Below are positions 23,373-62,521 of a DNA stretch of 64,000 nt, piece after piece. Both the position numbers and the translations under genes were made by a program. Below the pieces are notes generated by a model. It did not search any database. It was given only the letters and a program-made list of their open reading frames with translations, and was not told the origin of the DNA. Source of the stretch: Isoetes taiwanensis (Eukaryota; Streptophyta; Lycopodiopsida; Isoetales; Isoetaceae); NCBI GenBank assembly GCA_021234155.1, contig JAJEKV010000095.1:1491524-1555523 (forward strand). Reading direction: 5' to 3'. Positions within the stretch are counted from its first letter, which is position 1. Every line of letters starts with the position of its first letter.

Positions 23373-23435
23373 GCATTTGATTGAGTTGGTTGTATGTGCT
23401 TGTTAATTAAAAAGGTATTCATTTGTATTACTTGT

Positions 23436-26315: not shown

Positions 26316-26359
26316 TGTAGGAGCTTTTTCATATTATTTTATAGTCCCTATCACATATA

Positions 26360-26390
26360 AAGGTGACGGTGCAAACGCCCTAATGACCTG
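26360..26390 (+). repeat. Left terminal inverted repeat
   Basis: Begins AAGGTGACGGTGCAAACG and continues through taatgacctg. Pairs with 35095-35125. Confidence 0.85.
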
Positions 26391-26860
26391 CGTTTGCACT
26401 AATAAAAAGCATCTTTCAAAGATTCCATTAAGATACCCTTAAATTCAGCCACTTTTGGGGGGTCAATTAAAAAAATGACCCTAAATTTACGAATTTGGTA
26501 GCTATTTTAGGGGTCAAAATTACCAAAAAATTGGCGTCTTGTTAATTTGACACCCCATTTTAGGTATAAAAATAATAATCTAATTTAGTTGTTTTAGGTA
26601 CACATTCAAAAAGTGGCAAAATGGAACAACGAGCAAATTCTTGACAAATTTTAAAGACAGAAACAATAAAATGGAGCCGTAAGCATTTTTTATTGCTCAA
26701 GGAACAGCACACATGCTATGCGCGCATGGGCAAGGCACAAAAATAGTTTGCTACAAAAGAAACAAAAATTGCAAAATGCTATGCGCGCATAGCAGGGATC
26801 CTAAGTTTGAAAGACAAACATTGTACAAACTAGTCATGTACAGATGTACAAACATTCAAA

Positions 26861-29800
26861 TTACACGAGTAGCTTACGCCTATTAAGAAGAGCAGGTATT
26901 GGAATGTCGTCGTACTCATCAATTCCTTCAGACTGGTCATCACTCTCCTCATTGACACTCTCCTCATTATCGCTTGAAGTGGTGGAAGAGCTAACCGCCG
27001 GAACGCTATCCTCGTCTTGTTCAGCTTTGTCGTCGCTATCCTCGCAGAAAGACTTCAGCAAGTTTACTGTTGTTCTGCGGAGTCTGTTATCAACCTTTAA
27101 AGTAAAATCATAAGCCAAGACTTGAGTTTCAGCCAGGTCCAGATTGTCTAAGTGATTCTTATTCACTGTTTTCCGTCCTTTCTTAAAAGGAATTATCACA
27201 GGATCATACCGACCAACAAATGGATCTGTATCCTTAGTGGCATACCAGTGAACTTTTATCACTGAGGGTAGGTAATGTCTTTAACCCTTGCAATCCAAAA
27301 AGGACGTTCTTCGTCATCGTCAGTTGAAGGTACAGCTACTAGCATCCCTTTCTGCAAATCTGCAAGTTTCTCTGGAGTTTGACCTTCCTTTTTCTTGAGT
27401 GCACGTCGAGATCCCAGGTACATTGCACGATCAACGGGCTCCTTGTTGATAACAGTATTGCAGACAATAGATTCTTCTGCAATTCCTTGGGCATCCTCAG
27501 CAGGAGGAGAGGTTTGGCTACCAGGCCAACAAAAAGGAATCTCCAAAGTGATGTTGTTTAAGGACTTGGTCACGTCTTTCATGGTTTCAAAGAAATTCTC
27601 CCACCAGCCCTTTTCTTCCTCATTAAAGTACTTAAAACACGAGCTTATGCTTTTCTCCATGCTGGATAATGAGACAAGAGGATTCTTGTCCTTGTTCTTC
27701 TCAGTGTTGTCTATGGCACTCTTCAGTGGCTGCTGAATGGCTCTTCTCATTTCTTTAACTTCAGGAACACGTCTCAAGAATTGTAAACCTGCCTCTGGAA
27801 GCCAGGATGCAGAAGTTACAAAGTACTTTCCTTGAAGAATTGCATTACCTTCTCTGAGAAAGAACTTTACATGATGCTGAAAGGTCAAATTATTCAACTT
27901 GTGAATAGCAGGACCTGTGTCAGACTGTCGTTGAAAAACAAATTCACGAAAATCACAAGTCTCGCTAAGCACTTCGACAACTGGAGTTGGATTGTAGGCT
28001 TTCTCGATCACACTGCATAGGGAGTACAGACAAAATGCCTTTTTCCTGCGTAACCTTACAGAAAATCGACTGAACATTTGGTCTATTTGATCATGCGTGT
28101 GGCCAACAAGTAAGAAGCCAACCTTGACCTTTCGGAAGATACCTAATTGGACCAGCATTGCACAGTAGGCAAATAGAACTTGGTTTTTGTTTTCCCTGCT
28201 TGTATTGTCTAACTGTATGTAGAGCACTGAAGGCAACTTCTCCGTTGCCAGAAGAATCTTGTTCAGTATTGTCAGCGTGAGGTTAGGATCACTATGTATA
28301 TTTGGGTACATCAAAAATACTCTGCACTTTACCACGCCCTGAAAAACTAAAGCACCAACTAGATGCAACTTCAAGAAGTCAGCTTCATCTAAATCTTTAG
28401 GAACATTTATAAAATGAGGAAGGGACGTCTTCTTTTGATCCATGCCATCTACTACCACAGACATGTATTCAAGAGGCCTCTCCAAAGCTTTTTTTTCTGT
28501 GTTTTGCAAGCTTCTTTCTTTCCAGGGCTTGAGCCTCTCTGTGTTCCTGTAATTGTTGAGTTATTTGATCTGCAACCAAAGACATTTGTCAATATCACAT
28601 CCCACTTGCGCTTGCTATGCGCCAAGCGCATAGACACAATGACATCGTATTTGGTTTCTCGCTATGTGCGCATGGACAAGCGTCGGGGGTACATGAAGCA
28701 TGCTATGCGGGGCATAGACAAGCGACGAGTAAAATAGAAGCACGCTATGCGGCGCATAGACCGTAGTCCTTGCTTTATAAACCGTGCTATCGCGCCGCGA
28801 TAGACAAAAGACAAATCTAGTTAAACCGTGTTACGAAAGATAGATATGGGGGAACAAAGTACTTTGAAACAAAGAACGTGCTTTTCTCGAAAAAATTCTT
28901 TGCCATGGACCTTTTCTCCTTCAATACGTAATCGTAGAACATACCGAGAACCGTGCCTTTTGGGATCCTAACAAGATTGAATTCTTGCTTCCACAATCTT
29001 AAGAAGTAAGAGTAGGATATGAACGATCGACTTGAAGACTGAAAAGATCTCTCGTACATGATGTAGACTTCTTTCTTGGTAATGCTTGTCCGTAAGATGA
29101 TGAAACGAATGACTGTTGGGTAGTCGCCACGCTTTGAGTCAAAGAAGCCCACCAACCATGCTTTTGCTTCCAAGCAATGCACACCAACTACTTTCTTTGG
29201 GTGACAGTAGTCGTCAATGCATGGATTTTTGTCTAACCGTTTTTGTACCCTTGACATGTGACGACTTCCAATGGCATGTATTCTTTTGAAAGCCAGCTGG
29301 CAAACAGTTATGTTCAACACGTACTATGAAAAACTGTCGCCTCGTTCAAGCCTCACGTGATATGCTAGGTAGGATTCCTGGTCACCTTTAGACATTGACA
29401 AGAAGGATTGTCTTGTTTGCCTTAAGGACAAAAAAGGGAAGTTCATTATACACTTCTTTTGACAACAAGCCAGACGCCTCAACTGCCTCATGTAAGTTAG
29501 TCCCATTAACCGATTTCGCAAAACTGTCCTAAATGCCCTTACTGTAGGGTCCCTCTTAAATCTCTTTGCACTGCTGTATGGATTTCTCTGAGTCGAAAGC
29601 TCTGCGGGGTTGTTGTTCTGGCTGGAGCCTATGGTAGGTCTTTCTGGAGTACAAACAGGCTCGTCTTCAATAGTTGTGTCGTTAACCTTCTCACTCTCAA
29701 CCGAGGAACATGGAAACAATGTTCTAGACTTCCTCCTTAACATTTGTAGGCCATCCTCAGCGACCCTTTGGGTTAACGAGGGGCCTTTTGCACGCTGAAG

Positions 29801-30172
29801 AGGTCTCTCTGCAGAATCTATTATGTTTTGCAAGGAACGGTGCAATTCCTGTAGAGGTGAAGGAGTTTCAAAAATGGAGTGGGTGGTGTGAGTAGGTGAG
29901 GCCGAGGAAACGTCTTGTCGGAGTGAGGGAGATGGTGTTCTAAACACAGAGGAACGCTGTAGAACGTGTGTTGGTGAAGGAGTTTGAAAGGAGGTAGACC
30001 CGCGCATTAAGTGTATTGGCGACGGAGAAACAAAGCTTCCAGATAGACTATCACGTAAATCTTCGTCTTCACTGCTTTGTGTGGGTGTGCTGAACCCGCC
30101 TCGAGGCAATAATGAAAGATTCGCAGGCGGAGATAAAAACTTTTTCTTGAGTGGCTGCCGTCCATGCTGCAA
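26861..30172 (-). pseudogene. DUF7869-type transposase-like gene
   Basis: Read on the minus strand in four pieces. 30172-29324: a 282-residue Ser/Pro-rich N-terminus with SP/TP repeats (SPSPTH-like blocks), then RRLACCQKKC. 29320-28817: continues in the same frame after one TAG, VCQLAFKRIHAIG and a C..H.-rich stretch. 28509-27259: 416 residues with VDGMDQKKTSLPHF (D21, D24), QLDNTSRENKNQ (D101) and VGHTHDQIDQMFSR (H137-D143), the recurring acidic motifs of this family and candidate DDE-type catalytic residues. 27262-26861: VIKVHWYATKDTDPFVGRY and an acidic tail, joined by a frame change. A probable intron (about 28574-28816) holds five palindromes. DUF7869 proteins are widespread in eukaryotic mobile elements; the catalytic assignment is my inference. 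Confidence 0.75.
28617..28803. repeat. Five variant palindromes in transposase intron
   Basis: CTATGCGC-CAA-GCGCATAG-type (28617-28635), CTATGTGCGCATGG (28662), CTATGCGGGGCATAG (28703), CTATGCGGCGCATAG (28745) and CTATCGCGCCGCGATAG (28787). The centres and some arm bases differ from the standard CTATGCGCGCATAG, yet the two arms stay mutually complementary. Confidence 0.85.
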
Positions 30173-31241
30173 ATGGACAAAGACCTGTACTCAGAAACAG
30201 ACATGCACCACACCTACTGTGCATGTACTAAGTAAGGAAGTACACTAACAAATTAAAATAGTATTAGTAGCAGCTTGCCTATGCGCGCATAGCCCGGGTG
30301 TAAGATGAACTCTTATTGCCCATGCGCGCATAGACAAGATGTCATAAATTACAGTGAGAGATAAGCCTGTTACCTACTTGAGCACAGGGCAGACGTAATA
30401 ATAAAGTCTATAGCTCAAGTGAAGGAAGACAAGATAAGATAAACAACTGTAAAGGAAGAGCGGGAAATATGAAGAGACTTTGTGTGGGCTTGACACTCCA
30501 TAAAGGATCGCATGAAATGAAACACTACACTCTTCATGTATAATCTCATAGAAAATATCCAAGTACTAACGTAGAGAATAAATAGGGAAAAAGGGCGCAC
30601 ATTTCTGCATACAGACCGAAGCTCCTGGGCACTCGACCTCCGCCTTCACAGTCACTCCGCTTTTTTTACATACCGAACTCTATAAGAAGGTGCATAGACT
30701 CGCGGCAAATGGTAGGTGGAAGGTACGTCAAGATCTTAGCTGCTAGTTAATTAGCTCACTTTTTAATTTTTTTTTTTGCATTATTTGCTTAATTAGGCTA
30801 CCTCCAAAACGATTAAAAATGTCAATTTCTTAAGTGTTTCTGGCCTTCTTCCTGTGTTCTAGATATGTTTTGTGTGTTTTAGGTCATGTTGTCCTTGCTA
30901 AGCCTATGCGCGCATAGACACAAATCTTTTTTCTTAAGCTTTGCCTATGCGCGCATAGACACAAAGTTTTTTTTCTCATGCTTTGCCTATGCGCGCATAG
31001 ACACAATGTTTTTTTTCTCACGCTTGACCATGCGCTCATGGGCTTCAGCCTTTTTTAATTTGATCCTATGCGCGCATGGGCATAACACTTTTATTGAAGG
31101 TCGCCTATGCGCGCATGGGCTCAGAGCTTTTCTTTTGTAGTATGCCTATGTCACTTTTGGGGATAAGATTTTTTGAATCGATTGGCTATGCGCGCATAGG
31201 CAAATGATGTTTTAATACTTTACTGTTCTTAATATTTCAGT
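30173..31241. promoter_or_regulatory. Divergent intergenic region of the transposon
   Basis: This separates the two outward-facing genes and presumably holds both promoters. Palindromes occur at 30279 and 30319, and an array at 30904-31118 spaces six of them 38-42 bases apart, with another at 31186. A TTTCAG at 31235-31240 precedes the methyltransferase ATG (31242), so a leader intron is possible. Confidence 0.55.
30904..31118. repeat. Iteron-like palindrome array, ~40 bp period
   Basis: Six units each hold CTATGCGCGCATAG or a near variant (starts 30904, 30945, 30987, 31028, 31066, 31105), separated by T-rich spacers such as 'acacaaagttttttttctca'. The regular period, close to four helical turns, is like replication or partition iterons. 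Confidence 0.85.
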
Positions 31242-34200
31242 ATGAAGAGAAGCCTTGCACGGGGTAGCCAGGATGATGGTGGATCCTCCCAGAAGGCAGC
31301 CAGGAAGAGGAGGACGACAAAGGACAAGAGTCAGGATGCAGTTCTGGCTGCAAGTCAGCAGCAATTTCAGGTGGCCGAATAGGAGGCCGAATAGGAGGAC
31401 GAAGATGGCTCCTATTTTTGTAAGGACCAGCAGTGGTTGCTTGTCAGGGGTACCGGTGATCCAGCAACTGCGCAGTTTTTGTATTTGTACATTTGCTCTG
31501 AGACCGGCAAGCAAACACAAGACCTGGAAAGCTTCAGAAGATGTGGCAGGCTCGTGGATGTTGATCTGTTTGGTATGTTCCACATCAAGTGCACAACCAC
31601 CACCAAGGAGAGTGAACATGTATATTCTGTGGATAGTTCATTTTTTAAGCTGAGTTTGTCTTCTCCTGATGATATGCAAGGCTACATTCAGGCAAGACTG
31701 AAGAGTAAAATTGTAAGTGTTATTTTCCTGCACGAGAAGACTTTACCAACATGTTTGGTCTATGACATCATAGGTTTTGTTTGCAGGATCTTGTTTCTAT
31801 ACTAAAGGATCTTCTTTTGAACAAGGATCCTCTGTTAAGTTCTAGCGCACCGCCTGCTAAGCCGCGGAAGGATGCCGTGCCTCAAGTTCCCAAGCTAATC
31901 ATCCCCAGAATCTCAGAAACTGTTGAGGTGGCAACAGTGGATGAAGATGAACCTTCGGATCCCGAATCTGAAGAGGAAGAGTTTGAGGTTGAAGTGGTGG
32001 AGAGGCCAAAAAAAAAGAAAGCCAAAAGAAATTATTACAAAGCGTGCCCGGTGGACCGACATTAATCGCCCCACCAACTAGCAAGGCATCAAGAAAAGCC
32101 ACTAAGGTAGTTTTGCCTCCAAAGACCGCACAAGGATTGCCGCATGAAAAAGACATGGCTTCTAGGAAGCTCAAGAAATTGAGCTGAGATGTCGTGTTGC
32201 CTGGATCATGCACCTGCAGGTTGATTGTGTTAAGTTGTGCCCAAAGGATGAGTCTGGTGAGAGACCTTTGCAGGTGAGGAAAATTTACTCTGGTCATTTG
32301 TTTGCTCTTAAGGAACGTATAAGGGACAGACCAAAATGCAGCTACAAAGACGGACATTTGCATTGTTGACCCTTCCCAAAGGTAATCGGAAAAGGGATTT
32401 GTTTGTAAAGGAAGAGGATGAAAGCTACATGTAGTTTGTTTTGGGTGGCATTCACAGCTTTAAGGCGAGGAGGCAGCTTTTTAAAGAAACTAAAGAACAC
32501 TGCTTCTCTCAAATATTTGCATTTGTTTACGCGGTGTCACCGACTCGGCCCAAGTTGCTTGCCATGAGCCACAATGTGGACAATGAATATCGGATGAGCA
32601 TGAGCTTCAATCGACAAAATTAAGTTTATGCATAAGGAATAATGAAGCTTTTTAGGTCGGAGCATAAGGGTGACAAAGGTATAAAGGATGATCAAAACCT
32701 TTATCCGCTCTTAAAGAGCAAGCAGCTTTCTGAGTGTTTGCTTAACATACAACTCCACTGATGCCAGAGCGTCTCTTGTGAAGTACGACAACTACTTCCA
32801 ACTAGCTTTTAGGCATGGACGTGTAAGATCTTCTCCAAGTTCTTTGACCATGCGCGCATAGCTGTTCAGTTTTCTTACCTTTATTTCTTTCTTGTTCCTT
32901 TTTAGGTCTGGGAACTTCAAGATTTTTTTTTTTTGATATGTTTGCTGAGGGTACACTGAAATTCAAAGGAAAGGTGAATGATGCGAAAAGAAAAAAAACT
33001 GAACCTGCAAAACAGAAGGACATGGGTATCATGGTTTGGAGGGAAATGCAGGGTTTAAAAATGCAGGGTTTGGAGGGAAATGCAGGGTTTGTGAGGTGCT
33101 GCAGAAGGTGGTCAATGGCCACTTTACCTTGGAAGAGATGCAGGGTGAATTCAAACAGTAAGTTAAATTTCTGATCCAAAACACTAGCTAGTTTTTGTTG
33201 GTAGTTTACGTTCCAGAGTTTTTTAAGACTCCTTACTTTTGCAGCCAAAAGGATTGTGCACTCTGTCAGCAGCAATTCATGGTCCACCTTAACTGTGACA
33301 CCTGGGAAAAAGTTAAGGAATTATACCCTACATGGTCGTCGGACGAAAAGATTAACCAATACGCTTCGAATTTCACGAACTGGGTAAAATTTGTTGTTCC
33401 CCTACTTATCTTGTTGTGTGCCTATGCACGCATAGCACTACAAGAAGTCCGTTACTGTGGTGCTATGCGCGCATAGGCTGACCCTCAGAACTTTTGTTTT
33501 CTTCTTCTTACTAAAGCTGTTTTCTTGTTGTGTGTCTATGCGCGCATAGCACCACAAGAAGTCCGTTACTGTGTTGCTATGCGCGCATAGGAAGACACTT
33601 TGTACTTTCGTCTTCTTGATCTTACTAAAGCTGTGTTCTGTGGTTTTAGAAAAAGAAGGACCCGATGCCGCCAGGGTTTCTTAACATGGTTAGACTTGCT
33701 AAGGAAGAGCGCGCCAAGCTAAAGAAGAAAGAAGAAGCTGAGCAAAGTTTTGTGCCAACAGAATTTGAAAGGTTTGACATGTTTGGCCAGAATTGTTTAT
33801 ACCAGATATATCATGTGTCAAACTTGACCATACGTTGAAACCTGGCAATTATTCGTTGTGTATTGCTGATATCCCTTATGGGTTCAAGCTACCTGATAGT
33901 CGAGGAGATGATTCTCCATTTACTTATGCTGAATTTGATTCTTTCTTGAGACGTCTCGTCAAAATAAATACTGCACCGCTTTGGAGGATAATAGTTTTTC
34001 ATTCAAGTAATCAGGCAGGTTTGGTACAAGCTGCAATGAGAGAGAACTGCAAAGCTGGTTACGAGCCAGCCATTTGGTAAGTTATTTCTTTTTGCTATGC
34101 GCGCATAGCACACAATAACTCATTGGTTGCGGTTGCAGGTTGAAGACGAATGTAAGAGGAGATGACGGTGGTGCAAGGCTTGTAAATGTTTGGGAACAGA

Positions 34201-34818
34201 TGCACATTGGTTACCATAGCATTGGTGGGCAGAGAAGCATTTTGCACTATAATACTGCTGGAATGGATTTGCGTAATGCGTTTCAATTCCCAGCAGTCAT
34301 TCAGAAATTAACAGACCCAGTACCAGGGTCGTATAGTCAATCCTTATCAGAAGCCTCAATAGCTTATTAATACCCTTTTAGAGATGTTTTCACAGCCAGG
34401 TGACTGGGTCGTCGATGCCTTCTCAGGGTCAGGGACCACCTTGGCTTGTGCTTTAAAAAAGGGTCGCAACTGCCTTGCAATTGATTTTGATAAGGATACT
34501 GTGGTATATATAAAATCCAGAATAAGTTCTCTGCACAGCCTGCCAGATGAGAAGTAGGAGGTTGGCCTTAAGGATAAGGATGGTAATCCTGCAGCTTCAA
34601 GCTCAGAGCCTTTGCCACCACTCACTGGGAACACCAACGATCCGGCCGAGTTCGTCGAGCTTGTTCCTATGGAAGAGCTTCAAAAGGTTGTGGAAGAGAA
34701 GGATGCCTCAGACACTGAGGAAGTTAATCCTGACAGCTCTACTAAGGTTCTCCCTCCTGCAGATTCTGATGATGAACTTGTTGACAAGGTCTTCCTCTTG
34801 ATGTATAATGTGTGCTAA
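31242..34818 (+). pseudogene. ParB-like domain / DNA methyltransferase gene
   Basis: Starts MKRSLARGSQDDGGSS at 31242. Exon 1 runs to a GTAAGT donor at 31713 and exon 2 starts at 31787 after TTTGCAG with an acidic/lysine-rich part (EEEEFEVEVVERPKKKKAK). Around 32255-32640 come ERPLQVRKIYSGHLFALK and FVLGGIHSFKARRQL ... LAMSHNVDNEYRMSMSF, the ParB/sulfiredoxin-like fold pattern. The catalytic part has motif IV DIPY (33868-33879), then FxGSGTT motif I as DAFSGSGTT (34420-34440) and ALKKGRNCLAIDFDKD. That order (IV before I) marks the beta class of N6-adenine/N4-cytosine methyltransferases, targeting an amino group on DNA. Introns at about 33384-33649 and 34079-34138 carry palindromes. Several in-frame stops, mostly TAG, and at least one frame change are present. 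Confidence 0.75.
33409..33636 (+). repeat. Intronic 114-bp tandem duplication with palindromes
   Basis: Two 114-bp copies (about 33409 and 33523), each with two palindromes (33422, 33463; 33536, 33577) and the phrase 'caagaagtccgttactgtg', lie within a methyltransferase intron. Confidence 0.85.
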
Positions 34819-35094
34819 AAAAATGACATTTTTTTAAGTGCCTATATTATTGTATTACATTATTGAAATATAACTTTGTTGTCTATGCGCGTATAGACTT
34901 TCTTCCTTCCCTTTGTATTTTTGTGTCGTAAGAAAGTGCATTTTCTTAGTGTATCTTAACACAAAATCTGTCGCCCGCTTTTAAAATTGGCCATATTTGG
35001 AATGCAACTTTATTTTTTGGTAGTTGTTTTTTTTTTAAATGGTCAAAACTGGCGAATTTACGTTTTTTTGAAAAAGGAATCTGCAATTGCACCA

Positions 35095-35125
35095 CAGGTC
35101 ATTAGTGCGTTTGCACCGTCACCTT
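35095..35125 (-). repeat. Right terminal inverted repeat
   Basis: Reverse complement begins AAGGTGACGGTGCAAACG and continues cactaatgacctg. Array sequence resumes at 35129 with atatgtccattcg. Confidence 0.85.
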
Positions 35126-35507
35126 GTTATATGTCCATTCGATTAATATTTAGAGTTTGTCATTCAGATTCCTTACGCACTCTTCCACTGACGCAATATT
35201 CTAGAGTTTATGCATAGGCCCCATTAGTGGCACACCAATGCTCGACATTGTTACTCATTCACATGTTAATTCTTTCAATTTTTTATGATATCAAGTTCAA
35301 GCATGGAAAAACACGGTGATTGAGCAAATCTTGTCGCTTTATGCCTTGGCATAATCATTTGTTTGGACTTATTAGAAGAACAACCATTCCTACACCTTAT
35401 TGTACGACCACGATATTTTTTTGAGAACTGGAATCTGGATTATGAGATGCATTTGATTGAGTTGGTTGTATGTGCTTGTTAATTAAGAAGGTATTCATTT
35501 TACTTGT

Positions 35508-37246: not shown

Positions 37247-38590
37247 ATTCTTTACGCTGCTTTTACTCTTTTCTTTTTCCTTTTCCTTGTTTTCACACTT
37301 CCCTTTTTCCTTTTCCTTTTTTTTTTTTCATTTTCTTTGCATGCTTCCTTTCTTTCTTTCTTTTTTTTCTTTTTTTTTTTTCACATCCTTGTTTCCCCCT
37401 ATGTTGCCCTTCCCTTTCCCTTCTTCCCAAACCTTTTTCCATGCTCTGCTTGGCTTCTTTTTTCCCCTTTCTTTCGCCCTTTTTCTGTGCCTTTTTCCCC
37501 CTCTCTTTTCCCATTTCGCTATTCCTCTTTTCCCCACCTTTTTTTCGTTCCCTTTTTTCCCTTCCATTTTCCTCCTTTCCCCACCCTTTCCCTTTTCTCC
37601 TCTCTCTATTTTTCCTTTTCCCTTTTCTCATGACATTCTTTCTCATGCCTTTTTTCCCTTCCATTTACATGCTCTTTTCGCTTCCCTTTTACCCTTTGTT
37701 CACCCTTTCCTCTTTCCCTTTTCTCGTGGCTTTTCCCCCTCCCTTTTCCCTATCCCTCTTCCCCTTTTTCCTCTTGCTTTTTCCTGGTTCTTTTTTCCAC
37801 TTTCCCCTCCCTTTTTTATTTTTTCATTTCCCTTTTCCATTTCCAGTTCCCCCTTTTCCCTTCCCCTTTCCTCTTTTTTCCCACCCTTTCCCTCTTCCCC
37901 TTTTGATGGTGCCCTTTTTCCCTTCATTTTTCCCTTTCGTTTTCTACTCCCTTTCTCAAGCCATTTATTCCTTCCCTTTTTGACTTTTCCTTTTCCCATG
38001 CCTTTTTTTTTCCTTCCCTTTTGCATTCTCTTTTTTTTTTTTCCTCGTGCCTTTTTGCCCTTCACATTCTCCCTTTGCTTCTCTTTTTTCCTTTTCCCCC
38101 TTTTCCTTTTCCCATGCCTTTGTTTTTTCCCCACTCTTTCTTAATCCCTTTTTCCAGATGATTTTTTCCTTCCCTTTTCCCCTTTCCTCTCTTTTCTTTT
38201 TCCTTTCTCATTCCTTTATCTCATTCCCATTTCCTTTTTAATTTCCCTTTCCCCATCATTTTCCTCTTCCCTTTTTTTTTAATGAGTTTCCTCACCTTTT
38301 TATCTTCCCTTTTTCCCTTTCCCTCTTCCCTTGAACTTTTCTTCCCTTCTCCCTTCCTTCTTCCTTCCCCCCTTACCCTTTCCCTTTCCCAATGCCCTCT
38401 CTTTCATCCCACCCCCCTTTTCCTTTCCCTTTCCCATGCCTTTTTCCATGATCTACCCTTTTCCTTTTTTTTGTGGATTTCCTTCCCTTTCCCTCTTTCC
38501 CTTTTCTCATTGTCCTTTTTAGAGTTTTTTCCCTTTCTCCCTTTTTTTTCTTTCTCTTTTGTCATTCATTTCCCCCCCTCTTCCATTTCT
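37247..38590. repeat. Pyrimidine-only tract, ~1.3 kb
   Basis: The plus strand is almost pure C and T in irregular CCCTTTT-like runs with scattered 'catgcc', 'tcatt' and 'ctcatgac'. It starts inside a tRNA-Ser gene and ends inside a normal array phrase (tctagggtttatgcatagcc), so it replaces about one to two array units. A 326-codon Phe/Pro/Leu/Ser frame across it is a composition effect. It may be a true microsatellite or a failed consensus. Confidence 0.85.
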
Positions 38591-51772: not shown

Positions 51773-54700
51773 AGGCATAACTTGGAATATCCAAGGCATC
51801 AATTCAAATATCAAAAGAGGTAGATTGAAGGTTTGCCTCTCATCCATGAATCTGATTTTTCTTTTCTTTCAAGAGCATAAGATTTATGATGATAACATTA
51901 ATTCCATTATTAAAGATGTTCTTCCCCGTTGACTTTCAAGATTGGTCTCTCAAAGCTAACAACACCTCTGCAGAATTACTATAGCTTGGAGCAACAGGGC
52001 TTAATTTTGTTGACATTCGGGATGGTAAATGATAATGTTGCAAAAGGTGGCAAATTATTCATGGGATGGTTGGTGACAAGAGGATTGCTTTTATCAATGT
52101 TTATGCTTACCATCAGCCCCCGGAGAGAGTCAGCCTTTGGGAAGTCATTAATAGGAGTCTTGAGAGGATCCCTTATGATGAATGTATTCTAGCAGGAGAT
52201 TTTAACATGGTCACCCATAGCTATATGAGAAGTGCCAATTTTAGGCCTCCTCGACCGATAATGAATTTGCTAGCTGGAATTCTCTTCTCCACTCTCATCA
52301 TCTCTCTAACCGAGTCACCCCCACTCCTACAGTTGGAGTGACCATAGGGATCAGCCTGCTTGTTTGCCTTCATGACATTTTACCTCGAGGCCCCTCTGGA
52401 ACAACAAGACTAGGGTCACTAATTTAACCAACTATACTATTTCTCGACCATTTCCCTCATTAGTATCTGTGGTAACACTGCTCAGAGAAAAAGAAATTCT
52501 TTTTTTAAACTCAATACCAATCTCCTTGAGCTTGATGATTTCATGCCTAATCTGCAACAGGTGATTTCTCAAGAGAGAAAGCCTAATGGCAACACAGGCT
52601 GGATGGATTGGTGGGTGAGGGTTTCCAAAAGAATTAAGAATTGGCTCAAGGTTTGGGGAAAGGAAGTCCATAGAAGTAATACTGCTCATTTACAGGATTT
52701 GAGAACCCGGTTGGACCTAGCCCTGGATCAGCACAAAGATGAGATCAAAATTCAGATAGAAAGAGAAGAAATCAGAATTGCAAGAGGCTGGAAAATTAAA
52801 GCCAAGGTAAAGGAGCTCAAAGAAGATGAGAGAAGCAATTCGAAATATTTCTTCATCAAAGCTAAGGGAAGGATTAAGAGAAATCACATCTAGTATCCTT
52901 TGGGAAGGCAATAGTATTGACAATGATTTGCAACTCAAGGATGCAGCCAGAACTCACTTCTCCAGGATTATGGGGACTGAGGAAAATATTAGAAGAGAAG
53001 ATATTGAGAATTTTGTGTATATTCAAGAAAAAGTTACTGATCAGATGAATGACAGACTTTCCAGGCCATTTAGTTATGAGGAAATGTTAAAGGTACTTCA
53101 GGGAATGGAAAATGGTAAAACTCCAGGCCCTGATGGTCTCCCAGCTGAATTCTTCAAAGAATCGTGGGATATTCTAGGTATGGATATAGTATCCCTTGCT
53201 AATGAATTTCTGATGACTAAAAGATTGGACTGCAGGATCAACACTAGTCTGATTGCCCTCATCCCAAAGATTGATCTCCCAAATACTTTTTCCTTCTACG
53301 CACTATATCCTTAACCAATGTAGTCTATAAGTTAATTACGATACCATTGTTTGCTAGGCTCAAGCCCATCCTTGAAGAAGTTATCAGCAACACTCAAAGT
53401 GCCTACTTGAGGGGCAGGTATATTCTTGATAATGTTGTTGCTGCTTCCTTAGGAATCTCTTGGGCCAAAGACTCCAATCAGTCAATTGGCCTCCTCAAAT
53501 TGGATATTACAAAGGCCTTTGACACTGTAAGTTGGGCTTTCCTTTGCTGGTGTTGCAAAAAGCTTGGTTTCTCTGATAATGTTATCTCTGTCTTTCATGC
53601 CATTCTTAGCAATTCCAGATCTTCTGTTCTCATTAATGGGGAATGTAGCCCTTTCTTTGACATTAAAAGGGGGGTTAAGCAAGGTTGCCCTCTTGCACCC
53701 TTCCTCTTCCTGATTGTAATGGAAGGTCTGAATAGCCATTTCAAGAGAGCCAAAGATTTACATCTAATCAAAGGGCTTAGTCTACCCTCTCAGGAAGAAG
53801 GAGAAATATTAAATGTTCACTTTGCAGATGACACTTTTCTCTTTCTCCATTTGGAAGCACACTCCATTCAGCACACTCAGACTATTCTAGAAGATTTTGG
53901 TAAGTGCTCGGGATGCAGAATCAACCCTGCCAAGACCAAGCTCATCTCAAGGCATCAAGATGAGGGTGAGCAAGCAGCTACAAACTTGGGTTGTATGTAC
54001 CTCTCTCCCACTACTAAGACTAAAATTTTAGGCATCCCCTATGCTATTAGAACTAATGCTTGTGAACTTTGGGATGACTTGATTGATAAATTTTACAGAA
54101 AAGTAGACTCTCTTAATTCTAAATTCCTTTCTAAAAATGGGAGAGCCATTTTGGCAAATTCGGTCATCTCCTCCTCTCAGGTTTATCAATCCTCCATTAT
54201 GGTGGCCCCTAAGAAGGTTCTGACCAAAATGCAAGGTATCATTGGTAGGTTTATTGCGTGAGGGTCAAGCGAGAGGTGTTGGATTCCTATCTCAATGGAA
54301 GAATGTTGCAAGCACAAAAAGTTGGGAGGTCCGGGAGTTATTAATATTGAGAAACAAAGCTCGCTTTAGCTGCCAAGTACTTTTACGAGCGTGTAATAAC
54401 CAAATCAAGCACCCCGTGAGCATTCTTATCTCCCATTATGTCAAGAAATGCCACCCTTTCTACTGGAGGAATCTCAAAATGCAAATGCCTCCACAAAGAT
54501 TTACTTTGACTTTACCATCCCAACTACAGTACCTTTGATTATCAAAAAGTGGATCAGGGCATGGCAAAAGGTAAAGGGTATGTATACATGGAAGGAAGGT
54601 CTTTCTCAAGATCAACCAATTTTCTGGAGTCCCTCTCTCATTCTGGATGACCCTAGTACCTGTCTGGCTGCTAATTTCCCAACTCTAGCCAAGCAATGGA

Positions 54701-55160
54701 CCAGTAAGGGAATTATTTATATAAGGGACATTACTGATAATTTTGTTTATCAGGATTCCAGCATTGCAAATTTAGGAGATGACTCCAGACAGCTTTTTAA
54801 CAGTATCACCCAAAGGTTGGCAGCAGGGGTTTGGCATGACACAGATATTCTTTGGCACATCAATGAATTCTGTGGATACAGAGTAAACTTGGCCTATAGG
54901 TATCTCAATAGAGGCCAAGAGAATTCTATTCACAGAAAATGGAACATTGATCCAGACAGAGTCTCTAGGAACCTGAGATTCATGTGGAAGAGTCCAATTC
55001 ATCCAAAGATCAAGGCCTTTATGTGGCAGCTATGGCACAAGGCTTTAGCCACAAACAGAAAAAGATGGAGGCTAAACATGTCTGATTCTAATATATGTGT
55101 TAGGTGTATGCAGGATCGGGAAGATGAAGAACACTTATTTAAAAATTGTCTATGGGCGTA
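51756..55160 (+). pseudogene. LINE ORF2: endonuclease and reverse transcriptase
   Basis: Starts MDISLKGITWNIQGINSN. Endonuclease: ITWNIQG, FFQEHKI, AFINVYAYH and LAGDFNMV (51770-52215). Reverse transcriptase: NGKTPGPDGLPAEFFKESW (about 53113), QSAYLRGR, LKLDITKAFDTVSWAF, GVKQGCPLAPFLF and the catalytic FADD (53821-53832). C-terminal zinc-binding domain: FMWKSPIHPKIKAFMWQLWH and CVRCMQDREDEEHLFKNC (54980-55150). Frame changes occur at several places. The order is that of plant L1-clade LINEs, which copy RNA at nicked target DNA. Confidence 0.85.
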
Positions 55161-55560
55161 ATGGATTTTGGAGTCAAGCGAGATCTTCGAGTTGAACATT
55201 CCCGATTGGCTAATATGCAAATTGAAGAAATTATTTTCCCCGAGAACCCAAAGTGGAATGGAGGAGATACATTCTTCTTTGGAGAATGTGGAAAGGAAGG
55301 AATACCATGATCTTTAAGGAAGAAATCATCCGCCCAATGCAATTATTAAGCAAGCCCAAGATGATATAAATTGGGTTTTGAAATCTTCGGAATCGAACTA
55401 AGTCCTAATTCCTTTATCTAATGTCAATTTTGCTTTTGTGTGCGTGAAACACTTTCGATCATGTTCAAAAGATTGAAGTGGAGAAGGATGAATCTTCATG
55501 CTTGAATGCGCAATGGCTAACACAATTTGGGGTGGAAATACCAAACGAGCATGGGGATAA

Positions 55561-55993: not shown

Positions 55994-58080
55994 GATTTAG
56001 GAAAATGGGTGTGGCAGAAGATCGGCATCTCTATCTCTCCTCTAGCAAAAGGTATTGGGATTCCCGCAGCAACCAAACAGGCACATATGGATTTAATCTT
56101 TAGTTTTTATTGTTATTGTTTGTTTTCTTTATCTTAATCTGTCTATCTCATCTTCTTACAGGAACCAAGCACAGAAATTTATTCCAGATACATACATGGC
56201 GGATTCAAATTCTTGATCTGAATCTGAGAATAACTCAAAACAGTTTCACTCTAGATTTTCTATTTTAATTCCATCAATATGAATGAGCTAGAAATGAGAG
56301 CGTACAATTTGGAATTTGTCGATATCACAGATGCAGGAAGGGTTTTGAGTTATATGATGCAGAGGCTGTTGAGATGATTAAAAAGGGGCTTGCAATTCCT
56401 GCTTATGATTCTGTTTTTAAGGCTTCTCCTGTATTTAATATTTCTGGGTATGCTTGGAGCAACTAGGAAGCAATGGATGTTGACCAGGAAGCAATGCATA
56501 GGTTCTTCCATAGGATTTATTTCCCGGTTGGCATCAATGTCAGGTTAGGTTGTCCATTATTTCTCAGTTGGCATCGTGGTAGGGTTTATATTGGTTTTAT
56601 ATGAGGTCTTATGTATTTCACAGGATGCCTTATACGGAACGTGACATTCTTCGTTATGTGAATGTTTAACAATTTTCAAGATTCAAGCCATGATAGAACC
56701 TTCTAGACTGTCTTTTATCATCTTTCCTTGATCTGCCTCTGTTGTACCACTTTGCACAAATATAGGCTTCTTAGCTTTAAAACAATCATGGTTTCTTCAA
56801 GCTTTATGTCTACAGAGATCATGAAGAAGCAGGACCATCAAGTTACTCTCTTAAAACTCTAGACATGTTCGTTTTTCATGGCCCATGGTGGTCTAGATTC
56901 AGTTGTTCCATGCAACTAAACTGTTCTGAGCACAAGCGATATTAAAAAGAATTTCAGAACCATGTCATCAAACTTGGAGTGCCATCATTACAGCCCATGG
57001 TAGGCTTTGAATTGTGCCATTCAGATGCAAAATGAAGTTTGACTATAATTATGTTGTTTCCTTCTTGCCATTTTTGCACACACATGTATAGAAATACAAG
57101 CTACAAAGATCTGCGGCAATATATCAACTATTTATTACATTTTGAAGAGTATCTGCTGCAAATTTAGTTGCATTTTACAGTTTATTAAGTGTTAAATATG
57201 ATTTGTCTTTCAATTTTGTTAAGGACTGAATTATTACTTCTCAAAAACATAGTCAAACTTGACATGATTGAATGGGAATTCTGCTTATTGCAGTGAGCAC
57301 TTGCCACTTTTCTTATAATGTTTGGTGTTTTGGTGGTGCTCTTTCCGAGTTGCATTTTTTTAGTAAATTCTATTTGTGTAAGTCTAATGCATGTTCTTTA
57401 TCTGCGCTTTGTCTTGGTTGGTCATAATGATGCACTTTGGTTTGCTTGCAGAAACTAAAATGATACTAATACAATGGAAGCAGCAGCAGAATAATGTGAA
57501 CGCAACTGCCTACTGATAAATAAGATGATGAAAGCAATAACTATGGAGGAGCAAGAACTATGGAGAAGGTTCTGGACACTCTAATGACCCTTGATTCTGT
57601 CCATTTAAGTTAGAATTGAGCTGATGCACTACTTATAAAGAATAGTCCGCAATGAACTGGATGTAGTTTGGCATGTAAAGAAGTAGAGAGAACGGAATTG
57701 AACTCTTCGCACATGCATATGCAAAAGACTACATACAACTACGTAAAAGCATGTAAAGGGGATTTCCAAAAATGTTGTATTCTTAGAGAATCTAAACTAC
57801 CATATACAAAAGTATGGTACTCATTTCATGCAAACAAAACCCTTCCTCACTTTCTATTATACGCCAATACATAAATCAATGCCAACAAATAACATTATTT
57901 TTAGAAGGAATAAAAAAGAAATTATGAGTCGTTGACAAATTTGCCAACTTTTGCAAGAAAATTTATTGTTTGTAGAAGGAAGTGAGTGCAGCATTAATAT
58001 GTCACTCCCTTCTCATTGCGGTCAAAAGATTTAAAGACTTCCAACTTATGCCCAAAGATCGGGGCAATCACCGTTACTAG
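55994..58080 (+). other. Helitron B 3' interior with captured exons
   Basis: Nearly identical to 59583-61678 of C. At about 56339-56450 it carries the GlyRS-like piece described for C. An identical 68-codon frame in B (57668) and C (61269) reflects the shared ancestry rather than coding. The rest is non-coding with intron-like stretches. Confidence 0.6.
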
Positions 58081-58098
58081 TTCATTTATATTACTTGT

Positions 58099-58171
58099 GC
58101 ATTGGTGGTCTAGTGGTAGAATAGTACCACCTTGCGATGCATGCATCCGAGTTCGATTCTCGGCCAATGCA
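58099..58171 (+). pseudogene. tRNA-Gly 20, scrambled anticodon arm
   Basis: 73 nt; arm reads gtaccaccttgcgatgcatg. Lies 18 bases after Helitron B. Confidence 0.85.
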
Positions 58172-58428
58172 TCCTGTGGTTCAACTCTTCCAATTTTGTT
58201 CTTGGCGCAAGAGCCAAAAAGAAGATTTAATGCATTAAACCATGCTGATAATGACATAAGGATAACTGAGCAATCGATTGCACCATAGTGTGAGAAATGA
58301 GATCGAAGCTAATCTTGCTCTTCCAACCATCAAACATCACAATGAGAGAGAACAAATGACTAGCCAAATCCTATCCTCCTAAATATTTCAATGATCTAAG
58401 AAGAAACAGAAGTATTCCACATGCTGTC

Positions 58429-58510
58429 GTGGATGTGCCAGAGTGGTTATTGGGTATGATTAGAAATCATGTGGGCTTTGCTCGCATAGATTCGAATCCT
58501 ATCATCCACG
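58429..58510 (+). tRNA. tRNA-Ser(AGA) 21
   Basis: Complete, with three changes (gggtatgattaga, catagattcg). The T-stem change removes one pair. Confidence 0.85.
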
Positions 58511-59923
58511 TGTAGGAGCTTGTTCATATTGTTTTATAGTCCCTATCACATACGTCCATTCGATTAATATTTAGAGTTTGTCATTCAGATTCCCTACGCA
58601 CTCTTCCATTGACGCAATATTCTAGGGTTTATGCATAGCCCCCATTAGTGGCACACCAATGCTCGACATTGTTACTCATTCACATGTTAATTCTTTCAAT
58701 GTTTTATGATATCAGGTTCAAGCATGGAAAAACATGGTGATTGAGCAAATCTTGTCGCTTTATGCCTTCGCATAATCATTTGTTTGGACTTATTAGAAGA
58801 ACAACCATTCCTGCACCTTATTGTACGACCACGATATTTTTTTGAGAACTGGATTATGAGATGCATTTGATTGAGTTCGTTGTATGTGCTTGTTAATTAA
58901 GAAGGTATCCTATATTATAAAGTTATTCTGTAAGTGTTGGACCCAGCCCTAATTTGGGCGGCCCAGATTTTACCTTCGATTTGACGGTCGAGATCAAGCC
59001 CTCGATCTGGGTTTTGCTTCCTCCCCAATTCATTCCAATCCGGCAGGACCAGCTTCGTCACGAATAGGAAGGAAAAAACCCTTTCGTTATCGAAGCCCAT
59101 AGCATGGTGTTTTGGCTGGCTGAATCTTAGTTGCAATTGGAGGTGCAAAGGTGCTTCCATCTCTAAGTGGAGCTGCTTTTCGAAATCTAAGAATGTAGTT
59201 GGAGGAGGTCTTCTGGTGCTGGCATATTATGGCCCTGCTTTTGGCGGTCTTTGACGGAAAGCAGAGGCATGGAGCTGTACCATGGGCTTGGCGTGTAGCA
59301 GATGAATCACTTCATAAAAATATGATATGCAGTAGGTATAACTCCAGATTTCCGGAGGCATTCAAAATTGCATAGATTCCAGATTGCATAAGGCCGTTGG
59401 TAAGATTGAGGCTCTGCCGCAAGATCTGGGCAACGGATCCCAGCAGAAGCCGGGCTTGGAGGCACGCTGCTGCCAGAAACAAAAGAAAATTGCATGATGC
59501 TGCCATTTTTTGGGCAACGGATCCCAAGAATCTAATCCTTTTCTCTGGTTTTTGCAGGCTTACTTCAAGCAAATAGGGTTGTGATTTAGGAAAATGGGTG
59601 TGGCAGAAGATCGGCATCTCTATCTCTCCTCTAGCAAAAGGTATTGGGATTCCCACAGCAACCAAACAGGCACATATGGATTTAATCTTTAGTTTTTATT
59701 GTTATTGTTTGTTTTCTTTATCTTAATCTGTCTATCTCATCTTCTTACAGGAACCAAGCACAGAAATTTATTCCAGATACATACATGGCGGATTCAGCCT
59801 CTTGATACAGATACAGAATAACTCAAAACAGTTTCACTCTAGATTTTCTATTTTAATTCCATCAATATGAATGAGCTAGAAATGAGAGCGTACAATTTGG
59901 AGTTTGTCGATATCACAGATGCA

Positions 59924-60050
59924 GGAAGGGTTTTGAGTTATATGATGCAGAGGCTGTTGAGATGATTAAAAAGGGGCTTGCAATTCCTGCTTATGATTCT
60001 ATTTTTAAGGCTTCTCCTGTATTTAATATTTCTGGGTATGCTTGGAGCAA
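59924..60050 (+). pseudogene. Organellar GlyRS-like exon piece (captured)
   Basis: One frame reads KGFELYDAEAVEMIKKGLAI then PAYDSIFKASPVFNISG. The block GLAIPAYDxxxKxSxxFNI resembles the alpha-type glycyl-tRNA synthetase of bacteria and plant organelles (EDD1-like). Conserved flanking residues (LDSRG...) do not follow, so only one short exon piece is present. An upstream AYFKQIG at about 59559 may be a second piece. Identified from memory of the family and moderately sure. Confidence 0.5.
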
Positions 60051-61650
60051 CTAGGAAGCAATGGATGTTGACCAGGAAGCAATGCATAGGTTCTTCCATA
60101 GGATTTATTTCCCGGTTGGCATCAATGTCAGGTTAGGTTGTCCATTATTTCTCAGTTGGCATCGTGGTAGGGTTTATATTGGTTTTATATGAGGTCTTAT
60201 GTATTTCACAGGATGCCTTATACGGAACGTGACATTCTTCGTTATGTGAATGTTTAACAATTTTCAAGATTCAAGCCATGATAGAACCTTCTAGACTGTC
60301 TTTTATCATCTTTCCTTGATCTGCCTCTGTTGTACCACTTTGCACAAATATAGGCTTCTTAGCTTTAAAACAATCATGGTTTCTTCAAGCTTTATGTCTA
60401 CAGAGATCATGAAGAGATCATGAAGAAGCACGAGCATCAAGTTACTTTCTTAAAACTCTAGACATCTTCGTTTTTCATGGCCCATGGTGGTCTAGATTCA
60501 GTTGTTCCATGCAACTAAATTGTTCTAAGCACAAGCGATATTTTAAAAGAATTTCAGAACCATGTCATCAAACTTGGAGTGCCATCATTACAGCTCATGG
60601 TAGGCTTTGAATTGTGCCATTCAGATGCAAAATGAAGTTTGACTATAATTATGATGTTTCCTTCTTGCCATTTTTGCACATACACGTATAGAAGTACAAG
60701 CTACAAAGATCTGAGGCAATATATCAACTATTTATTACATTTTGAAGAGGATCTGCTGCAAATTTAATTGCATTTTACAGTTTATTAAGTGTTAAATATG
60801 ATTTATCTTTCAATTTTGTTAAGGACTGAATTATTACTTCTCAAAAACATAGTCAAACTTGACATGATTGAATGGGAATTCTGCTTATTGCAGTGAGCAC
60901 TTGCCACTTTTCTTATAATGTTTGGTGTTTTGGTGGTGCTCTTTCCAGATTGCATTTTTTTTAGTAAATTCTATTTGTGTAAGTCTAATGCATGTTCTTT
61001 ATCTGCGCTTTGTCTTGGTTGGTCATAATGATGCACTTTGGTTTGCTTGCAGAAACTAAAATGATACTAATACAATGGAAGCAGCAGCAGAATAATGTGA
61101 ACGCAACTGCCTACTGAAAAATAAGATGATGAAAGCAATAACTATGGAGGAGCAAGAACTATGGAGAAGGTTCTGGACACTCTAATGACCCTTGATTCTG
61201 TCCATTTAAGTTAGAATTGAGCTGATGCACTACTTATAAAGAATAGTCCGCAATGAACTGGATGCAGTTTGGCATGTAAAGAAGTAGAGAGAACGGAATT
61301 GAACTCTTCGCACATGCATATGCAAAAGACTACATACAACTACGTAAAAGCATGTAAAGGGGATTTCCAAAAATGTTGTATTCTTAGAGAATCTAAACTA
61401 CCATATACAAAAGTATGGTACTCATTTCATGCAAACAAAACCCTTCCTCACTTTCTATTATACGCCAATACATAAATCAATGCCAACAAATAACATTATT
61501 TTTAGAAGGAATAAAAAAGAAATTATTAGTCGTTGACAAATTTGCCAACTTTTGCAAGAAAATTTATTGTTTGTAGAAGGAAGTGAGTGCAGCATTAATA
61601 TGTCACTCCCTTCTCATTGCGGTCAAAAGATTTAAAGACTTCCAACTTAT

Positions 61651-61678
61651 GCCCAGCATCGCTGGGCACCGTTACTAG
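61651..61678 (+). repeat. Helitron C 3' hairpin and CTAG end
   Basis: Perfect 7-bp stem 7 bases before CTAG, the same arrangement as at 16251-16280. Confidence 0.85.
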
Positions 61679-61696
61679 TTCATTTATATTACTTGT

Positions 61697-61767
61697 GCAT
61701 TGGTGGTCTAGTGGTAGAATAGTACCCTGCCACGGTACAGATCCGAGTTCGATTCTTGGCCAATGCA
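61697..61767 (+). tRNA. tRNA-Gly(GCC) 21
   Basis: Normal anticodon arm returns in this unit. T-stem ccgag/cttgg includes a G-U pair. Confidence 0.9.
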
Positions 61768-62024
61768 TCCTGTGGTTCAACTCTTCCAATTTTGTTCTTG
61801 GCGCAAGAGCCAAAAAGAAGATTTAATGCATTAAACCATGCTGATAATGACATAAGGATAACTGAGCAATCGATTGCACCATAGTGTGAGAAATGATATC
61901 GAAGCTAATCTTGCTCTTCCAACCATCAAACATCACAATGAGAGAGAACAAATGACTAGCCAAATCCTATCCTCCTAAATATTTCAATGATCTAAGAAGA
62001 AACAGAAGTATTTCGCATGCCGTT

Positions 62025-62106
62025 GTGGATGTGCCAGAGTGGTTATTGGGCATGACTAGAAATCATGTGGGCTTTGCTTGCATAGGTTCGAATCCTATCA
62101 TCCACG
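62025..62106 (+). tRNA. tRNA-Ser(AGA) 22
   Basis: Complete; variable arm tttgcttgc has one base change. Confidence 0.92.
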
Positions 62107-62521
62107 TGTAGGAGCTTGTTCATAATGTTTTATAGTCCCTATCACATACGTCCATTCGATTAATATTTAGAGTTTGTCATTCAGATTCCCTACGCACTCT
62201 TTCACTGACTCAATATTCTAGGGTTTATGCATAGCCCCCATTAGTGGCACACCAATGCTCGACATTGTTACTCATTCTCATGTTAATTCTTTCAATTTTT
62301 TATGATATCAGGTTCAAGCATGGAAAAACACGGTGATTGAGCAAATCTTGTCGCTTTATGCCTTGGCATAATCATTTGTTTGGACTTATTAGAAGAACAA
62401 CCATTCCTGCACCTTATTGTACGACCACGATATTTTTTTGAGAACTGGATTATGAGATGCATTTGATTGAGTTCGTTGTATGTGCTTGTTAATTAAGAGG
62501 GTATTCATTTATATTACTTGT

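Follow-up and report, generated by a model that had tools for sequence, protein, structure and literature searches.

Transposons that encode a protein combining ParB-like and DNA methyltransferase domains have been described from algae. The element Sola1-1_Ec32 of the brown alga Ectocarpus carries, according to the section devoted to it, a gene opposite the transposase gene that encodes ParB-like and N4-methylcytosine/N6-methyladenine (4mC/6mA) methyltransferase domains; similar ParB-methyltransferase proteins are cited there from green and red algal transposons, and it is suggested that proteins of this type attach to the transposon that encodes them and mark it (PMC12477816). The Sola superfamily is characterized, in the passages dealing with it, by a DDD transposase and a 4-bp target duplication (AT-rich in Sola2), and has been reported from the moss Physcomitrella (PMC10741241, PMC9033089, PMC3627910). 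Here, we describe a DNA transposon of ~8.8 kb at positions ~26359–35128 of a 64,000-nt stretch of contig JAJEKV010000095.1 (hereafter ‘the window’, meaning the whole stretch of DNA that was analysed), in which a DUF7869 transposase gene and a divergent (head-to-head) gene for a putative ParB-like methyltransferase, its ‘partner’, are accompanied by 24 short palindromes that are candidate binding sites. For the green and red algal genes of this type, PMC12477816 cites Iyer 2011 and Petroll 2025.

The window is eukaryotic and contains 30 tRNA genes (20 Ser-AGA and 10 Gly-GCC) at 23435–63726, all on the plus strand and most of them in head-to-tail repeat units of ~825 nt. The element splits one of these units at CATATG, and the uninterrupted site is kept in 17 other units (10 with CACATATGTCC, six with CACATACGTCC, and one with CACATACATCC). 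The consensus of these empty units is CACATA(T/C)(G/A)TCC, and the occupied unit reads CAC-ATAT-[element]-ATAT-GTCC, a 4-bp duplication of ATAT given the ends AAAGG...CCTTGTT. Its left copy (26355–26358) depends on AAAGG/AACAAGG being taken as the ends, and its right copy (35129–35132) on comparison with the uninterrupted units; as this reading leaves the ends unequal by two terminal bases, the exact border is an interpretation. Inside the duplication lie the terminal inverted repeats (left, 26359–26390, plus strand; right, 35095–35128, minus strand, pairing with the left end), which over 31 nt (26360–26390 and 35095–35125) are 96.8% identical once the right end is reverse-complemented. A 19-nt end sequence, allowing at most three mismatches, matches at two positions in the whole window, both of them element termini, where 0.01 matches are expected. 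The clean inverted repeats and the insertion into a tRNA array unit, both reported in an earlier note on this DNA, are therefore upheld. Having the terminal inverted repeats and the target-site duplication with a known empty site that define class II elements, this element is a cut-and-paste DNA transposon. Its host is most likely a land plant, to judge by its relatives and by the type of retrotransposon in the window.

The transposase gene occupies the left half of the element on the minus strand. Its catalytic part and C-terminus (26861–28560) include a match to DUF7869 (PF25273) at E 4.2e-51 on 27259–28560, so that the profile search bears out the DUF7869-type gene that had been noticed by motif. 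The alignment with P0001 runs from 28515 to 27211 at 54% and, in another frame, from 27271 to 26903 at 41%, and the C-terminal part of the protein lies at 26861–27280. Beyond an intron that bears palindromes, the 5′ part (28818–30190, minus strand) consists of two open frames (28817–29323 and 29324–30190) separated by one in-frame TAG, and, judged by eye, resembles transposases of ferns and liverworts in their N-terminal part. The reading frame of the window copy is damaged by this TAG and by changes of frame around 27270 and close to the 5′ end of the catalytic exon. A search of 5.8 billion proteins found 130 relatives, of which 120 are listed; among the matches listed, the named sources are the liverwort Riccia sorocarpa (many), the fern Adiantum nelumboides (two), and two bivalves, three entries come from EukProt (two of them taken from their names as sponge), and the best by E-value beyond the named ones shows 55% identity over 95%. 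Three aspartates (D38, D118, and D160 in query numbering) are retained in 97–100% of the rows with a residue there (37 aligned). Because three nearly invariant aspartates are what a DDD transposase would be expected to have, we infer that the DUF7869 protein is of that type. DUF7869 is not mentioned in any paper found in the open-licence literature, to which all of our literature searches refer and outside which most subscription papers lie.

The partner gene (31242–34817, plus strand) has several GT-AG introns, in-frame stops, and frame changes. Towards its 3′ end lies a beta-class amino-methyltransferase domain (33787–34557, plus strand), with DIPY in its first exon, FSGSGTT in its second, and a palindrome (34095–34108) in the intervening intron. 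The domain matches N6_N4_Mtase (PF01555) at E 4.3e-12 on one exon and at E 6.3e-14 on the joined exons, scoring 52.9 bits against a cut-off of 26.7 (62 bits in the related protein P0121 and 32.8 bits in the related locus L014, both introduced below). Two PHROG DNA-methyltransferase families, phrog_67 and phrog_498, span nearly the whole domain (query 17–223 and 17–220 of 229). CcrM and further enzymes of the beta class are matched more weakly in NCBIfam (below its cut-offs) and among PDB sequences. The beta-class catalytic consensus is (D/N/S)PP(Y/F) before the S-adenosylmethionine (AdoMet) motif; here, DIPY precedes FSGSGTT, its second residue not being proline, and the surrounding IADIPYGF is identical in the window, L011, and L014. 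An oppositely directed, spliced amino-methyltransferase gene, as the earlier note had described it, is thus well founded. No protein matched a 486-aa query of joined partner pieces at E 1e-3. The single protein retrieved with a shorter query, of 229 aa, was P0121, which aligns to 49% of that query at 55% identity (E 8.6e-32); it derives from a 901-base contig and apparently has the same exon border as the window gene.

The partner frame is broken in several places, more heavily than that of the transposase, so that the window copy cannot make the full partner protein as assembled and, its methyltransferase gene being broken, could write no DNA mark by itself. Some of the frame changes may be artefacts of assembly at runs of A. 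With both genes damaged in the assembled sequence, the window copy would be a dependent copy. As several of the breaks are TAG, use of this triplet as a sense codon was considered; it was rejected, since other breaks are frame changes and the frames of relatives are open under the standard code. Within the first exon of the partner gene, the 12-nt repeat AGGAGGCCGAAT at 31369–31403 repeats an in-frame TAG. The origin of the methyltransferase was sought among prokaryotes and viruses as well. The phage and plasmid matches of widest coverage have ~25% identity, too distant for a bacterial donor to be named, and those inspected carry no ParB fusion in their existing annotations, two of them having been scanned with Pfam and found without ParB. 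A scan of genome contigs with the methyltransferase gave no match, and a viral origin was set aside when scans of viral contigs yielded no relative.

A DUF7869 profile scan of prokaryote genome contigs yielded 16 loci (L011–L026, of which L024 and L025 are apparently one contig). Eight of them, L011–L018, share a bin that bears the label Trichormus (ERR2144891). Since Azolla ferns are home to Trichormus azollae and the partner gene in L011 has GT-AG intron borders, we read the eight contigs as probably fern (Azolla) DNA inside a cyanobacterial bin, here called the Azolla bin. As an observation in its own right, intron-bearing transposon genes that are probable fern DNA are present within a GTDB species representative (Trichormus, ERR2144891). 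In five of the eight contigs (L011, L013, L014, L015, and L018), tblastn with pieces of the window gene finds partner homologues linked to DUF7869: the first methyltransferase exon is present in all five, with E values from 1e-21 to 1e-7 and opposite in strand to the transposase, and the second in L011, L014, and L018, the contigs of L013 and L015 being cut off within the gene. The three remaining contigs (L012, L016, and L017) end 1.5–1.6 kb upstream of the transposase match, too early to judge. Stop-to-stop frames in L011, L013, L014, and L015 span 873–898 aa for the transposase and 566–594 aa for the first exon of the partner. Across this exon, three partner proteins share 68–73% identity with the first, and entire blocks show no variation. 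Inverted ends of 33–37 nt (79–94% identical) surround both genes in all three contigs that reach them (L011, L014, and L018); the L011 pair is weak alone (E 0.003) but resembles the pairs of the other two, and of these three copies, only L011 has a 4-bp duplication, AACA, visible by eye. Because their inverted ends differ from those of the window element, the Azolla-bin elements are taken as related families and not as copies of the window family. The pairing of transposase and methyltransferase genes first noticed in the window accordingly recurs between inverted ends in related families.

Upstream of the methyltransferase domain, a block at 32271–32620 (plus strand) matches five Azolla-bin loci by tblastn (E 4e-15 to 3e-11) and is 45–47% identical to four of them. 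In the relatives, the following can be seen by eye and in this order: L-K-K-K-M-K-x-N-x-x-x-x-x-V-P-F-L-V, Y-F-V-I-G-G-S-H-S-x-E-A-R-R-Q-L, and L-A-W-D-H-N-N-D-N. Such a motif order is known from ParB, and by eye and position, the middle domain of the partner looks ParB-like. The same block, used in tblastn, found nothing in phages and nothing significant in plasmids.

The palindromes of the element are of the CTATGCGCGCATAG type, and all 24 lie outside coding parts as drawn: three near the ends, five in the transposase intron, nine between the genes, and seven in partner introns. Two are found near the left end (26716–26792, 63 nt apart) and one near the right end (34883–34896, from the pattern scan). 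The five of the transposase intron (28615–28803) vary in core and have their centres 41.5–44.5 nt apart, whereas six of the eight spacings among the nine sites between the divergent genes (30279–31199) are 38–42 nt; a further four, likewise from the pattern scan, stand in a partner intron that has a 114-nt tandem duplication (33422–33590). Overall, 12 of the 15 spacings under 100 nt are 38–44.5 nt. The 24 sites were kept from 27 pattern matches, those at 30162, 30680, and 34247 being dropped as non-palindromic (8 of 15, 8 of 18, and 8 of 20 letters); two of the three dropped matches fall in coding parts. The non-coding count of 24 of 24 depends on exons delimited manually, by means of open frames and splice-like borders, and, as some of the sites are tandem copies, no naive probability should be attached to it.

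These sites are conserved beyond their surroundings. The column statistics cover 19 of the 20 14-nt sites and leave out the site at 31760, which has a different core, and four longer sites. They give 1.87 bits for each column of the core and 0.31 for the flanks; the outer eight core columns are partly circular, being in the search pattern, but the inner six, outside it, average 2.03 bits. In the array at 30904–31118, sites are 91% identical and spacers 52%. An origin by chance was rejected: the window has 34 matches with at most two mismatches where 1.14 are expected, and the region between the genes has five strict palindromes against a mean of 0.31 in 200 shuffles, none of which reaches five. 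Of the 34 matches, 10 exact and eight others are inside the element and 16 outside it, 15 of the latter being one two-mismatch sequence of tRNA-Ser type.

Palindromes recur in the Azolla-bin elements, where they differ in sequence from element to element and keep their position between the genes. L013 has 13 sites of two kinds spaced 50–54 nt apart (except one spacing of 43), L015 has 10 that are 50–52 nt apart, and L016 has three 51 nt apart; the spacings are 41 and 43 in L012 and 51 in L017, and L011 and L014 have four and two palindromes, respectively, in looser order. ATGC..GCAT, as in the window core, occurs in at least one palindrome of each of these seven loci (L011–L017), one of the two kinds in L013 being GATACC..GGTATC without it. 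When the region between the genes was shuffled in the five linked loci, none of the 200 shuffles reached the observed number in L011, L013, L014, or L015; for the cut contigs L012, L016, and L017, the observed number was reached in 12, 2, and 9 of 200, which is weak alone. The spacings give only a hint of clustering near whole helical turns (R 0.66 for 15 spacings in the window and 0.78 for 28 in the Azolla bin), as these values have no null and the spacings are dependent through tandem duplication.

A ParB-like/methyltransferase protein is thus encoded beside phased, element-specific palindromes, and for that reason, a protein together with its own sites is the simplest reading. We tentatively propose, as plausible rather than probable, that the partner binds the palindromes of its element and marks the DNA of that element. 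In such a mechanism, the DUF7869 protein would act as the DDD-type transposase; the ParB-like domain of the partner would recognize, much as ParB does parS, the palindromes of the introns and of the promoter region that separates the genes; the partner would then methylate adenine (to 6mA) or cytosine at N4 in the element’s own DNA; and the bound or methylated state would protect the shared promoter from silencing or distinguish the element’s copies from host DNA. Going further, one may picture a complete self-recognition system, in which an element-specific ParB-like methyltransferase and helically spaced arrays (with a pitch of ~4 turns in the window and ~5 in the fern-bin elements) co-evolve by family and self-marking by 6mA/4mC keeps the element active despite silencing by 5-methylcytosine (5mC). 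This extension is doubtful; if true, eukaryotes would have in such elements a self-marking counterpart to ParB-parS.

Several observations weigh against binding and marking by the partner. No ParB family was found for the window block in Pfam, NCBIfam, PHROGs, or PDB sequences, nor for the relatives with long open frames in the profile libraries or PDB sequences, the only match being DUF6551, below its cut-off, in three of four cropped relatives (E 0.013–0.053). The nucleotide motif of the ParB/sulfiredoxin fold is given as GxxR in the relevant part of PMC12704722, and its arginine is serine in all five sequences compared (GGIHS in the window and GGSHS in four relatives); if the block is a ParB fold, its nucleotide site would be changed. 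The ParB-like block claimed in the earlier note can be recognized by eye and is matched by none of the profile libraries. Moreover, L018 carries the partner gene and has no palindrome between the genes, both genes are broken in the window copy, and two distant loci, L024 and L026, have repeated GCGATC...GATCGC palindromes together with a DUF7869-type open reading frame (ORF) and no methyltransferase found on the possibly incomplete contigs (L024 matches PF25273 at E 5e-21, and L026 is a tblastn relative at 4e-8).

If those two contigs hold whole elements, their palindromes favour a role for the transposase. It is possible, though rather unlikely, that the sites bind the DUF7869 transposase or an element-encoded repressor, serving transposition or autoregulation of the shared promoter, and that the methyltransferase is unguided by sequence or acts on other targets. 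Iterated transposase-binding motifs are indeed well known in transposons, for instance as the subterminal repeats of the En/Spm type. Yet just three of the 24 window sites are near the ends, the rest being between the genes and in introns; the sites of L011, L013, L014, and L015 are likewise concentrated between the genes; and the distant DUF7869 contigs L019–L023, fragments in which no partner gene was found, have 0–3 palindromes each and no array. The DUF7869-type ORFs of L024 (3907–6919) and L026 (3756–3875), both from aquatic metagenome bins, also show weak OTU-like N-terminal matches.

We consider it improbable that the palindromes work through the structure of the nucleic acid, as DNA cruciforms or as hairpins of the long leader and intron RNA, or arose by hairpin-copying expansion, with no protein reader. 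In favour of this, four of the five sites in the transposase intron are 15–19 nt long, their paired arms flanking centres that differ in length, and palindrome arms reach 17 in L013 and 12 in L015; against it, 20 of the 24 window sites are fixed at 14 nt, the 19 analysed are nearly fixed in sequence, which structure alone does not require, and Rfam gives only weak matches over the palindromes, all far below gathering scores. It is also very unlikely that the methyltransferase gene was captured by the element and rides along with no role in it, as genes carried by non-autonomous transposons do: although it is more heavily broken than the transposase gene in the window copy, it has the same place and direction in five of the eight related contigs, its first exons are conserved there with invariant blocks, and P0121, from another source and not necessarily linked to a transposase, keeps the domain.

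Three further features of the window lie outside the element. An L1-like non-LTR retrotransposon at 52400–55161 (RVT_1, E 2e-29; zf-RVT, 3e-14) stands between stretches of the tRNA array; a 2.9-kb direct duplication (55994–58917 and 59583–62516) has 97% identity; and a C-/T-rich stretch at 37302–38390, with strong GC and AT skew, consists of CCCTTTT-like repeats.

Returning to known systems, the domain pair of the partner is also that of phage ParB-N6_N4 methyltransferase fusions, as described in the pertinent part of PMC12704722, whereas the window gene is an intron-containing eukaryotic transposon gene with serine for the GxxR arginine and no detectable ParB sequence match. The ATAT duplication is of 4 bp and AT-rich, as in the definition of Sola in the passages concerned (PMC3627910, PMC10741241). 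This duplication and the three aspartates, the features on which the comparison was made, agree with Sola. KDZ transposons of fungi, which reportedly carry TET/JBP genes (Iyer 2014), resemble the window element in carrying a DNA-modification enzyme and differ in transposase and in enzyme class; KDZ was set aside on duplication length, 4 bp here against what is said to be 8 bp there. No paper was found that ties palindrome arrays to ParB-methyltransferase transposons, and none that reports such a transposon from a land plant or links one to DUF7869.

Most similar is Sola1-1_Ec32. Like the window element, it has a gene with ParB-like and methyltransferase domains opposite the transposase gene (the ParB part of the window gene being recognized by eye and position); it differs in being 21.5 kb long, against ~8.8 kb for the window element and 7.7–7.8 kb for L011 and L014, and the relevant section of its description mentions no palindrome array (PMC12477816). 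The green and red algal transposons, as cited in that section, have the same kind of accessory protein in other hosts. The earlier note knew of no such combination from a plant, which agrees with the published record on land plants as far as found; for brown, green, and red algae, the combination had been published, with the same idea of self-marking (PMC12477816, in the section concerned). Adenine methylation in eukaryotes is controversial, conflicting reports having come from method artefacts according to the relevant part of PMC12695648, and an element with its own amino-methyltransferase and candidate target sites provides a location in a plant genome for which the presence of 6mA or 4mC is clearly predicted and can be sought. 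We read the window element as a new, and probably land-plant, variant of the algal kind. By offering candidate binding sites, it makes the suggestion put forward in the section on its algal counterpart, that the encoded protein attaches to its own transposon and marks it (PMC12477816), testable with named DNA sites.

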